A stretch of 53,537 bases of DNA. It comes from Spirochaetota bacterium. Its GTDB lineage: Bacteria > Spirochaetota > UBA4802 > UB4802. The position numbers and the translations under genes were made by a program. The notes under the pieces were generated by a model. That model was not told where the DNA came from and searched no databases. It saw only the letters and a program-made list of their open reading frames with translations. Positions 16,589 to 27,344 of the stretch are shown here, one piece after another; position 1 is the stretch's first letter; every line of letters starts with the position of its first letter. The stretch is from assembly GCA_040756435.1 (NCBI GenBank), contig JBFLZD010000025.1, forward strand, positions 1 to 53,537. The letters are read 5' to 3'.

Positions 16589-16632
16589 TAATTTGGGCGA
16601 TAGTTATGTGGATTATATAATAAGGATTTCTT

Positions 16633-23266: not shown

Positions 23267-24544
23267 TGTTACAACCCTAATATATAAAATTTGACTTTAA
23301 ATATTTTCATCATTTCCTATATTACTATACTTTGTATTAAATATGAATTTTATATCACTGTGAACAACTGCAGAATGGTACATGTTTTCATATTTTGTTC
23401 ATAATAGGATATTTAAGTAAAAATAATAATATAAATTAATTATAATTATAAGTGTTTAAAATTGTAAAGATTTTTATTAAGTAGTTTAAATAAAATCTTT
23501 TGATTTTAAAGCTCTGACCCCTTACAATAATATATATCACCCTTTCGGGGTTTTAAAGTGAATAACAGGATGTCATCCTGAACCATCTCCTGAATTTATT
23601 TCAGGATTGATTCAGGATCTACTTATTAGGCTCTGACCCTCAAATCCCACTACCTCCCTAATAACTCTGCGTACTCTGCGTGATGCATCAGTTGGTCTCA
23701 CGCAGAGACCGCAGAGATGGGGAGAGTGTGGCTCTGACCCCTTACAATAATATCACCCCTTCGGGGTTTTATAGTGAATAACAGGTGTCCTCCTGAACGT
23801 GATTCAGGATCTACAGTGGTGAGGATAAAGATTCCGTCTCAAGCCCGGAATGACGTATTACTTTGTCATTTCGAAGGAACGTAGTAACTGAGAAATCTTA
23901 AAGTGGGAGGCAAAGATTTCTCGCTGCGCTCGAAATGACAAAAAGAGATGACCGGAATGACGTATAGGCAACAAGTCATCCTGAACTTGATTCAGGATCT
24001 ACTTATTAGGCTCTGACCCTCAAATCCCACTACCTCCCTAATAACTCTGCGTGATGCATCAGTTGGTCTCACGCAGAGACCGCAGAGATGGGGAGAATGT
24101 GGCTCTGACCCCTTACAATAATATCACCCCTTCGGGGTTTGCATGATGTTGTGATGGGGTTGAGATAGTATGCTCTGACCCCACTAAGGATCTTACATAT
24201 CTTCCTATCATTAAGGATTTGCCCCCTCAAAATCCCACTATCTCTCCAATAACTCAGTACACTCTGCGTACTCTGCGTGTTCCATCAGTTTTTTTCACGC
24301 AAAGACCGCAGAGATAGGTAGAGCCTGAGCTCTGACCCTCTTACAATAATATCACCTCTTCGGGGTTTAAATGATGTTGTGATGGAGATAGTATGCTCTG
24401 ACCCCATGGTTTAACAATTTTTCTAACTTTTTTATCAAAAAGTACAAAATTTTTCCCAATTCCTTTTAATTTTTCCCACCAAAAGCGTTGTATACAGTAG
24501 AAGCGTAATGTGCATATTACTACTACACTTATAGGAGGAATACT
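23267..24544. repeat. Mosaic repeat region upstream of the RAYT gene
   Basis: The first 240 bases are plain AT-rich sequence. From 23511 the region is built from blocks that each begin with GCTCTGACCC[C/T]: 23511, 23630, 23731, 24010, 24102, 24172, 24329 and 24395. Type A blocks (23511, 23731, 24102, 24329) start with CTTACAATAATAT and a CCCCTTCGGGG-type hairpin. Type B blocks (23630, 24010 and a diverged one in 24172-24328) carry a CTCTGCGTGA/TCACGCAGAG stem. A third palindrome lies at 23864-23940. No gene is supported here. The blocks resemble REP/BIME-like substrates of the neighbouring transposase. Confidence 0.85.
23864..23940. repeat. Long imperfect palindrome in the repeat region
   Basis: The outer arms TGTCATTTCGA (23864-23874) and TCGAAATGACA (23930-23940) are perfect complements. 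Inner arms GAGAAATCTT (23890-23899) and AAGATTTCTC (23913-23922) are also perfect. It belongs to the widespread class of dispersed intergenic palindromes. Confidence 0.8.
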
Positions 24545-25161
24545 ATGGCACGGAAATTGCGGGTACAGCTACCAGGGTTAACCTATCATATCACTTCCCG
24601 CTGCATAGAGTGGAAATCTATGTTGCAGGAAGACTTTTTTAAGGCTTGCTTTGTAGAAATACTAAACAAAGCTAAAGCTAAGTATCACTTTAAGCTCATT
24701 GCCTTCTGTATTATGGATAACCACATACACTTAGTCATTCATACAGTAGATGATGGTGCACCAATATCCCGTATTGTGCAGTATATTAAGGCACGATTTG
24801 CAGAATTGTATAATAAACTAACAGGAAGAACTGGACCATTCTGGAATGAGCGGTATAAGGATAGCATTATACAGTTTGCTAAAGATGGGTTTCACTATTT
24901 GTTGTGGTTGTTGTGGTATTTGGCGTATAACCCAATACGCAAAAGATTATGCTCTGACCCCACCAAATACCACTACAGCAGCATACAGGCATATTTAGAT
25001 GAAAATGCCGATGTAGGAGTTCCCATAGACCATCATGAGTATTTTATAGAGTTAGGGGAAACCTTTGCCAAGAGAGTGGCTGTGTTTATGCGTTATGAGG
25101 AATATTATAAAAAGAAGTATTCCATGATATGTGAGTGGGTGTGAAAAAAAAGGGTCAGAGC
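24395..25161 (+). mobile_element. RAYT element bounded by inverted 11-mers
   Basis: The 767-base unit starts with GCTCTGACCCC (24395-24405) and ends with AGGGTCAGAGC (25151-25161), the reverse complement with one mismatch. It contains one gene, a REP-associated tyrosine transposase. The left-end 11-mer is the same one that punctuates the repeat blocks upstream. No obvious target duplication is visible, as expected for HUH enzymes. Confidence 0.7.
24545..25144 (+). CDS. REP-associated tyrosine transposase (RAYT, Y1 HUH family)
   Basis: This 199-residue protein of the IS200-like Y1 family nicks single-stranded DNA at palindromic repeats. The HUH motif is DNHIHLVIH (about 58-66). The catalytic Tyr is probably in RIVQYIKARF (about residue 80). 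The N-terminus ARKLRVQLPGLTYHITSR and the later GPFWNERYKDSII and WYLAYNPIRKRL are typical RAYT features. A strong GGAGG precedes the ATG. The reading frame holds its own copy of GCTCTGACCCC (24951-24961), encoding part of LCSDPT. It appears intact, so it could be active or recently active. Confidence 0.92.
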   Translation: MARKLRVQLPGLTYHITSRCIEWKSMLQEDFFKACFVEILNKAKAKYHFKLIAFCIMDNHIHLVIHTVDDGAPISRIVQYIKARFAELYNKLTGRTGPFWNERYKDSIIQFAKDGFHYLLWLLWYLAYNPIRKRLCSDPTKYHYSSIQAYLDENADVGVPIDHHEYFIELGETFAKRVAVFMRYEEYYKKKYSMICEWV

Positions 25162-25757
25162 TTAATACTTCTTATTACTTTCCGTGAAAAATCAGTGAGA
25201 ATGCGAGCGGTTAAACCCCATATGGTATAGCCATTGTAATGGTAATAATAAATGGCGTATGGTATGCCTTCATAGGTATAATATTTTACATCATCAAATT
25301 TTTCTTCTACAAACAATGAAAGGGGCACCTCAGTATATGATTCAATTTCATTGTAGTTAATGGTAAGCTGGTAAGGATACGGTATAATCCCAACAAACGT
25401 ATATACATGAAAACCATATATTGATATAAAATGGTCAAATTCACCCAATACGGTTACATCATCAGGCTTAATACCAACTTCCTCAAACGTTTCCCGCAGT
25501 GCTGTATCAAGTGGTGTAGCATCATCTTCATCAATTCCACCGCCGGGCAATGAAACCTCACCCTTATGAGTGCCAACATTATTTGTACGTTTGGTAACAA
25601 GTACATGTGGTTGATTGTCTTTGAAAAGAATAGGAATGAGCACTGCAGCATCCTTTAGACTTTTTCGTTCAATTGACCGGGGCGGGCGCTGGTGCAATAC
25701 CTGCTTTATCCTGTCACAAAATATCATAAATTCGTTATAATCATTGAAATTAAGCAT
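25155..25757 (-). CDS. Nudix hydrolase, CoA pyrophosphatase-like (NudL type)
   Basis: This protein of about 200 residues cleaves nucleoside diphosphate linkages. The pattern HKGEVSLPGGGID precedes the Nudix box, in which LRETFEEVGI supplies the metal-binding acidic residues. The extended sequence before the box is that of the CoA pyrophosphatase group. Frames begin at 25781, but all starts overlap fumarase beta; the ATG at 25757 gives a sensible N-terminus. The last codons are unusual: the TGA stop (25155-25157) lies inside the right end of the RAYT element, so the C-terminus was rewritten when that element arrived. Confidence 0.85.
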   Translation of the reverse strand: MLNFNDYNEFMIFCDRIKQVLHQRPPRSIERKSLKDAAVLIPILFKDNQPHVLVTKRTNNVGTHKGEVSLPGGGIDEDDATPLDTALRETFEEVGIKPDDVTVLGEFDHFISIYGFHVYTFVGIIPYPYQLTINYNEIESYTEVPLSLFVEEKFDDVKYYTYEGIPYAIYYYHYNGYTIWGLTARILTDFSRKVIRSIKL

Positions 25758-26277
25758 ACAGGTCACCGCCATATGTATCATTGATTACTATAGCAGGAAA
25801 TTTTTCAACGGTTAATTTATATATGGCTTCAGGGCCAAACTCTTCAAACGCAATTATCTGCGCATCCACAACACATTGATTGAGATAGGCAGCAGCACCT
25901 CCAAAGCTTGAGCAATATACCGCTTTATAATTAACAAAAAGTTTTTTAACTTCGCTGCTGCGAGATCCCTTGCCTATAAACATCCTGACGCCTAATGACA
26001 GCATGATGTCCGTATAGGCATCCATACGGTATGATGTTGTGGGGCCGATAGCTCCAATAGGCATCCCTGGTGGTGCAGGGCTTGGTCCAGCGTAGTAGAG
26101 TACTGCATTGGTAAAATCTATGGGGAGAGATTTTTGCTGTGCTATAAGTTCTGCAATCTTTTTATGAGCTTTGTCACGGGCAGTATAGATGGTACCGGAT
26201 ATGGTTATAAAGTCCCCTGCCTTTAACTGTTGTAAATCATAATCTGAAATAGGTGTATGTAAATCAATAGTTTTCAT
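25750..26277 (-). CDS. Fumarate hydratase class I, beta subunit
   Basis: This 175-residue protein is the C-terminal-type subunit of two-subunit Fe-S hydro-lyases. These convert fumarate and malate (or tartrate in some relatives). Family features include LKAGDFITISGTIYTARDKAHK, YYAGPSPAPPGMPIGAIGPTTSYRMD and GKGSRSSEVKKLF. Its ATG overlaps the alpha-subunit stop by 4 bases (ATGA). The Nudix gene overlaps its 3' end. Fumarase is the most likely function given the hydrogenase context, but L-tartrate dehydratase cannot be excluded by sequence reading. Confidence 0.9.
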   Translation of the reverse strand: MKTIDLHTPISDYDLQQLKAGDFITISGTIYTARDKAHKKIAELIAQQKSLPIDFTNAVLYYAGPSPAPPGMPIGAIGPTTSYRMDAYTDIMLSLGVRMFIGKGSRSSEVKKLFVNYKAVYCSSFGGAAAYLNQCVVDAQIIAFEEFGPEAIYKLTVEKFPAIVINDTYGGDLYA

Positions 26278-27110: not shown

Positions 27111-27344
27111 TTACTTATGTTCTTGCTCCAGCAATGTTGTGTATTCATCCCACGTTGCTTCTATTTCGCGGGCTGCTTGGGGGTCAAGTATTTCTATGAT
27201 AAAGCCTGCATGGACAATAACTTTATCGTTGATTTTAACGTCAGGGGTCAGAGCAATGTCAACTACCTTCTCAACTCCCATGGATTCAACAATTGCTTTG
27301 GTCCCTTCAATTTTTTTTACTGTCATCGGTATTGCAAGACACAT
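27111..27344 (-). CDS. hypC: HypC, [NiFe] hydrogenase maturation chaperone
   Basis: This 77-residue protein has the obligatory N-terminal MCLAIP; Cys2 binds the Fe(CN)2CO precursor together with HypD. The core VDIALTPDVKINDKVIVHAGFII is typical of the family. AGGAGG lies just before the ATG. It follows hypE by 17 bases and precedes the fumarase alpha gene with no gap. The C-terminus is Glu-rich and helical. The string GCTCTGACCCC, encoding ALTP, matches the repeat 11-mer but fits normal HypC sequence. Confidence 0.95.
   Translation of the reverse strand: MCLAIPMTVKKIEGTKAIVESMGVEKVVDIALTPDVKINDKVIVHAGFIIEILDPQAAREIEATWDEYTTLLEQEHK

Follow-up and report, generated by a model that had tools for sequence, protein, structure and literature searches.

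The window, by which we mean the whole 53,537-nt stretch of DNA analysed here, carries a gene for a Y1 HUH transposase of the RAYT/TIRYT type, a Nudix gene on the opposite strand and, upstream of the transposase, a mosaic of repeat blocks (Table 1). The blocks meet at the 11-mer GCTCTGACCC[C/T], spelled GCTCTGACCCY and hereafter called M. The initial annotation had listed eight same-strand copies at 23511-24405 and had read each as the point where one repeat block gives way to another; we confirmed all eight and found every one of them to be a block boundary, the last (24395) opening the transposase leader, against an expectation of 0.01 copies in the whole window from dinucleotide shuffles. 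Three further copies had gone unreported, one within the transposase gene (24951) and two inverted (25151 and 27244), as had a degenerate M (TCTG-CCCC) where the C block joins a B block. The codon position of the gene-internal M is spelled differently in the relatives outside the genus that we inspected.

Table 1. Features of the M-bounded array, the transposase unit and its right-hand neighbourhood in the window.
Feature	Position	Strand	Remarks
M + AL1 (A head, CGTC-type REP hairpin)	23511..23629	+	
M + B1, long imperfect palindrome	23630..23730	+	DNA fold z = -5.4
M + AL2 with nested CGTC-type REPs	23731..24009	+	REP definition: PMC3733652
M + B2, 9 bases shorter than B1	24010..24101	+	
M + AS (short A)	24102..24171	+	
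M + C joined to B block via degenerate M	24172..24328	+	B part fold z = -5.5
M + AS next to RAYT leader	24329..24394	+	
M, left end of transposase unit	24395..24405	+	
Y1 HUH transposase (RAYT/TIRYT type), 199 aa	24545..25144	+	PF01797, 9.9e-13
M within transposase gene	24951..24961	+	Encodes CSDP; the six RAYT 3' remnants of G000 all start here
Inverted M', right end of transposase unit	25151..25161	-	Directly behind RAYT gene; gives Nudix gene its stop codon
Nudix gene	25155-25781	-	Stop codon from inverted M'
Isolated M	27244..27254	-	Same position in G005, 11/11 identity; missing from G002 and G003

The blocks follow the order AL-B-AL-B-AS-CB-AS, after which come the RAYT leader and gene. 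What had been described as type A is not a single type: it exists in a long form with CGTC-type REP hairpins (AL) and a short form (AS), and the A head switches into AL or AS inside the block, away from M. The nested REPs of AL2 are GTCATCCTGAAC...GATTCAGGATC, ATTCCG...CGGAATGACG and GTCATTTCGA...TCGAAATGAC; REPs of this type occur both within AL (23742-24009) and elsewhere in the host genome, G000, and seem to spread independently too. The unit loss reported for the B block at 24010 is borne out, B2 (92 nt) being without nine bases, CTCTGCGTA, that are present in B1 (101 nt). These two blocks are 99% alike and their shared stretch extends past M; B1 and B2 may thus have arisen by plain tandem duplication. 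Folding of AS and C gave no clear gain in stability over shuffles. The idea that M is a component of each block hairpin is not supported, M being mostly unpaired in the B and AL folds.

Several features place the transposase. It scored 80.8 bits against the family model NF047646 (cut-off 80), and a second transposase of the same genome, RAYT2, scored 71.0, under the cut-off. The HUH and Y---NP signatures (HIH60-62, Y125---N129 P130) are present in 14/14 aligned homologues, with H60, H62, Y125, N129 and P130 invariant, and an AlphaFold model with pLDDT 82.8 has the HUH fold, its top PDB match being the RAYT-REP complex 4er8 (E 1.9e-8). The closest named relatives in a transposase search were Spirochaetota MAGs. 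In Pfam, Y1_Tnp was the sole match above cut-off (residues 11-105), and no C-terminal helix-turn-helix model appeared even at E 10. In TIRYTs, or TIRtrons, as described by Di Nocera et al. (2013; PMC3733652), a Y1 transposase lies between inverted repeats with GGGGWSAS, and TIR copies also occur across the genome singly, in pairs or in clusters. Like them, the locus combines a Y1 transposase lying between inverted repeats (M at 24395 and M' at 25151), a repeat whose reverse complement begins GGGGTCAG, fitting GGGGWSAS, and genome-wide scatter of that motif, with 205 copies of M. By reading, we saw no GT[AG]G-tagged hairpin REPs at the unit ends (leader fold z -1.0), and the enzyme beside the array is a Y1_Tnp protein, not the tyrosine-recombinase integrase of an integron. 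On the features tested, we class the locus as a TIRtron, apart from GTAG REPtrons and integrons.

To what extent M belongs to the transposase can be read from its distribution. In G000, a draft genome of 3.61 Mb (all genomes compared are MAG-like drafts), the 205 copies of M stand against 0 for the reversed control and ~1 expected from an order-5 Markov model. Enrichment near RAYT genes had been set beforehand as a test, and 66/205 copies proved to lie within 2 kb of the 15 Y1_Tnp genes; upstream of these genes, 37 copies are in gene orientation and 1 is opposed. Among 46 genomes of the class, M reaches at least 5 copies in 32/35 with a homologue (E<1e-25), and 8/11 without one have 0-2 copies (co-occurrence Fisher p 8e-5); the three exceptions without a homologue have 18-27 copies, in genomes that are 73-96% complete. 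A second transposase lineage in G000, with ~50% protein identity, has arrays of GCTCTGACACY (M2), that is, GCTCTGAC-A-CY. Copies near RAYT1 and RAYT2 number 54 and 6 for GCTCTGACCCY and 1 and 15 for GCTCTGACACY (p 3e-10), and the upstream orientation is 36:1 for M1 with RAYT1 and 11:0 for M2 with RAYT2. M belongs to its transposase lineage.

The second lineage occurs with its own motif and arrays at sampled loci L123, L142 and L172 and on G000 contigs C22, C41, C50, C100 and C109. Three genomes with clear transposase homologues (G029, G039 and G043) have only 1-3 copies of M and probably use another motif. In other families of the order (L204, L206, L209; G014, G017), the upstream 11-mer arrays are mostly oppositely oriented, and some copies lie merely 14-20 bases apart. 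A literature search for the 11-mer gave unrelated matches only. M as a pure chance coding word (ALTP, GSDP, GVRA) was rejected: the Markov model expects ~1 per genome, and M is more conserved than windows whose amino acids are identical.

Comparing the flanks of all M sites in G000 revealed how sharply sequence changes at the motif. Pairs of sites with the right flank alone in common numbered 343, with 0 bases matching past M in 209; for those with the left flank alone in common, the figures were 95 and 66. Nearly all such pairs, which are not independent, had 0-3 matching bases past M. All six RAYT 3' remnants in G000 begin at the gene-internal M (five in recognisable M1/M2 form, one decayed) and are fused on the left to AL, B, CB or AS blocks. 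The order AL-B-AS-RAYT recurs at C59, C43, C18 and C2, extra M-bounded AL-B or CB-AS pieces occur at the window, C24 and C16, and C9 holds two near-identical B-AS pairs in tandem. Since this core order is common to several loci, part of the window array was taken up as a ready-made string. Thus, of the earlier proposal of stepwise insertion or recombination at the 11-mer, exchange exactly at M is well supported, but the array was not all built unit by unit. Assembly chimaeras at M alone are unlikely, since assemblers usually work with words longer than 11 bases. Misjoins inside blocks may have occurred, and contigs of the relatives tend to break within the transposase gene. The start of L214, at a contig end (G003:C6), bears an apparent sequencing-adapter remnant, AGATGTGTATAAGAGACAG.

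The sister species show fixed loci with changed content. The transposase loci C43, C59, C16 and C11 of G000 have counterparts at the same position in G005 or G004. At C43 (G000, G005 and G004) and C59 (G000 and G005), homology of the unique flank crosses the outermost M and ends 0-2 nt later, and the blocks beyond are unrelated between species; at C16 and C11 the flank match ends further out, and only the block difference is informative. The alternative anticipated by the initial annotation, blocks conserved as one unit in all relatives, was thus not what we found. BLAST with the block bodies matched A 35, AS 37, B 28 and C 6 times in the sampled G000 loci and gave no match in the samples of G002 (0.80 Mb) and G005 (0.77 Mb). 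G005 has a mosaic of its own, in which the block TGTTATTCCCGA is followed by different blocks at two loci and four RAYT copies 97-99% alike bear different block series. RAYT identity is 97-99% within G005 versus 79-80% between orthologous loci; the transposase genes are homogenised within species, which suggests that whole cartridges are exchanged as well as blocks. A bare M of G000 at C12 corresponds in G004 to M, array and RAYT, and the alignment stops at the last common M base. In G002 the whole unit is missing at the window locus and at C18; both empty sites are without M, so that either a target can do without M or M has since disappeared from these two. In G004, the transposase neighbours the Nudix gene that it also adjoins in the window.

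Junctions at M are sharp, content turns over at orthologous loci, and one species has the motif empty where another has it occupied. We consider it probable that the locus is a TIRtron-type element with an array of cassettes exchanged through M. According to this model, the element would be a Y1 HUH transposase gene bracketed by its own motif in inverted orientation, and its left side would have grown into an array of M-bounded, non-coding cassettes in a single orientation; cassettes, and sometimes an entire cartridge of M, array and transposase, would be excised, inserted or replaced exactly at M, and the chromosomal docking position (the flank with its outermost M) would stay constant through speciation. 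The Y1 enzyme would nick single-stranded M and rejoin the cut M to another M on one strand; excision between two copies would leave one M, and joining into M would leave M on each side, with polarity constant. That the RAYT itself performs the cutting we infer by analogy. Characterised TnpA-REP enzymes cleave single-stranded DNA at CT and then rejoin the strands, and Y125F abolishes the activity of the Marinomonas enzyme (PMC8266576); two CT steps occur in M. A counterpoint to unit-wise exchange is the recurrence of AL-B-AS at several loci, which implies that many cassettes moved as strings. The A-head switch away from M, the B1/B2 identity that extends past M and the M-less empty sites of G002 also count against the model.

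Could the repeats have built the mosaic among themselves, through homologous recombination, slippage and gene conversion, with M the end of an old TIR unit and the enzyme now uninvolved? The single 9-nt unit that separates B1 from B2, whose identity crosses M on both sides, the tandem B-AS pairs at C9 and the many joins with a degenerate M are what such processes would leave. In hundreds of switch pairs, however, the sequences past M match no better than chance, 11 bp is far under usual recombination tracts, homology at orthologous loci ends at M within 0-2 nt, and four kinds of block are joined to the left of the gene-internal M; we therefore regard this explanation as unlikely. Somewhat less doubtful is a non-modular history, in which every locus received a whole copy of a single ancestral composite, AL-B-AS-RAYT, that later decayed. 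Its four occurrences in G000 and the greater likeness of RAYT copies within G005 than at orthologous loci are consistent with this, but the four near-identical G005 copies have differing block series, extra M-bounded pieces are present at three G000 loci, and both RAYT remnants and bare M exist. Cassette exchange through M accounts for the array in our preferred reading and leaves the in-place conservation of M in coding genes unexplained.

Roughly 100 copies of M in G000 are isolated. In the fetched loci, 66 copies stand alone, 50 of them in open frames of at least 150 aa. Compared with G005 (~79% identity), 21/30 isolated copies are identical and 24/30 are still M, versus 10.7% for other 11-mers (p 2e-14), and three more sites show the M2 form in G005; where the amino acids are unchanged, 15/16 sites are still M1 or M2 versus 18% of control windows (p 9e-11). 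In G002, 5/15 are conserved versus a 4.8% background (p 5e-4), and the G002-G005 comparison, a very small sample, gave 1/4 and 1/3. These values would suit a host motif under selection in genes and intergenic DNA, which transposase units only borrow as end or target; yet most transposase-free relatives have 0-2 copies, isolated copies number only ~100, and two transposase lineages have two different motifs, and we judge it improbable that M is primarily such a motif. This constraint on isolated M at the DNA level might stem from a role as docking sites, from some function that the enzyme has for the host, or from biased transfer. We tentatively entertain a further reading, that M is a genome-wide address which a domesticated HUH enzyme maintains, or which is maintained for it: ~100 single 11-mers, many of them in conserved genes, would be held fixed amid diverging flanks and could also dock M-bounded cartridges. 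Insertion scars were rejected as the source of M in genes, the orthologous alignments being without a gap at M, and strand concordance of isolated M along contigs was absent.

Examples of M conserved in place between species are found at 27244 and at L072, L106, L107 and L116; other isolated copies lie in conserved protein motifs, named by reading, of an acyl-CoA dehydrogenase (L086), RibD (L160) and an M20 peptidase (L140). A second word, GGGCGATAGTTACT (core GCGATAGTT; T-rich before, A after), is also over-represented. It occurs in the window at 16598, 28002, 30346, 38142, 39639, 40029 and other sites, 175 times in 0.80 Mb of G002 and 207 times in 0.77 Mb of G005 (samples L223-L302). It is retained at 19/42 and 19/37 of the orthologous positions, versus a 5.9% background, and resembles an uptake-signal or Chi-like genome motif. 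For a tie between M and the more abundant GCGATAGTT, we saw no clear excess within 60 bp.

Integrons have a fixed platform, one polarity, a short recombination site at each cassette boundary and exchangeable content, and use a tyrosine recombinase. The array resembles them in these workings, whereas its enzyme is a Y1 HUH protein, its cassettes are non-coding and no attC is known; it is not a member. It differs from the published TIRtrons in its ordered, one-orientation cassette array, in exchange at M over species and in the 1:1 pairing of motif and transposase lineages within a genome, none of which the consulted sections of that description (PMC3733652) contain. With TnpA-Y1 subclass 2.1, which is RAYT group 1 (Quentin et al., 2018; PMC6006769), the system shares Y---NP, HUH, inverted repeats of GGGG[AT][CG]A[CG] and the lack of GTAG REPs, but its enzyme has 199 aa, a C-terminal HTH was not found in it, and there are at least 10 related copies per genome. 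As in REPtrons, REPINs and BIMEs, an HUH enzyme lies next to clusters of palindromic repeats in a mosaic of short modules; unlike there, GTAG/GTGG-tagged hairpins were not seen, M is non-palindromic and the units are direct instead of alternating. The AL repeats, with their AT-starting stem and short loop, resemble CGTC-tagged REPs, published as having no transposase partner (PMC3733652), but are here nested in transposase-linked cassettes.

TIRYTs were named from their flanking repeats, and the TIRYT literature consulted does not describe their mode of spread. A single genus here offers natural experiments, with fixed loci, swapped contents, sites that are vacant or filled, and two pairs of enzyme and motif one base apart, so that motif specificity and M-to-M joining can be tested in vitro. 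CGTC-type REPs, reported without a dedicated transposase, are now placed inside transposase-linked cassettes. Should complete genomes bear out the conservation of M in genes, this would provide direct evidence for a RAYT-type enzyme with maintained genomic target sites.
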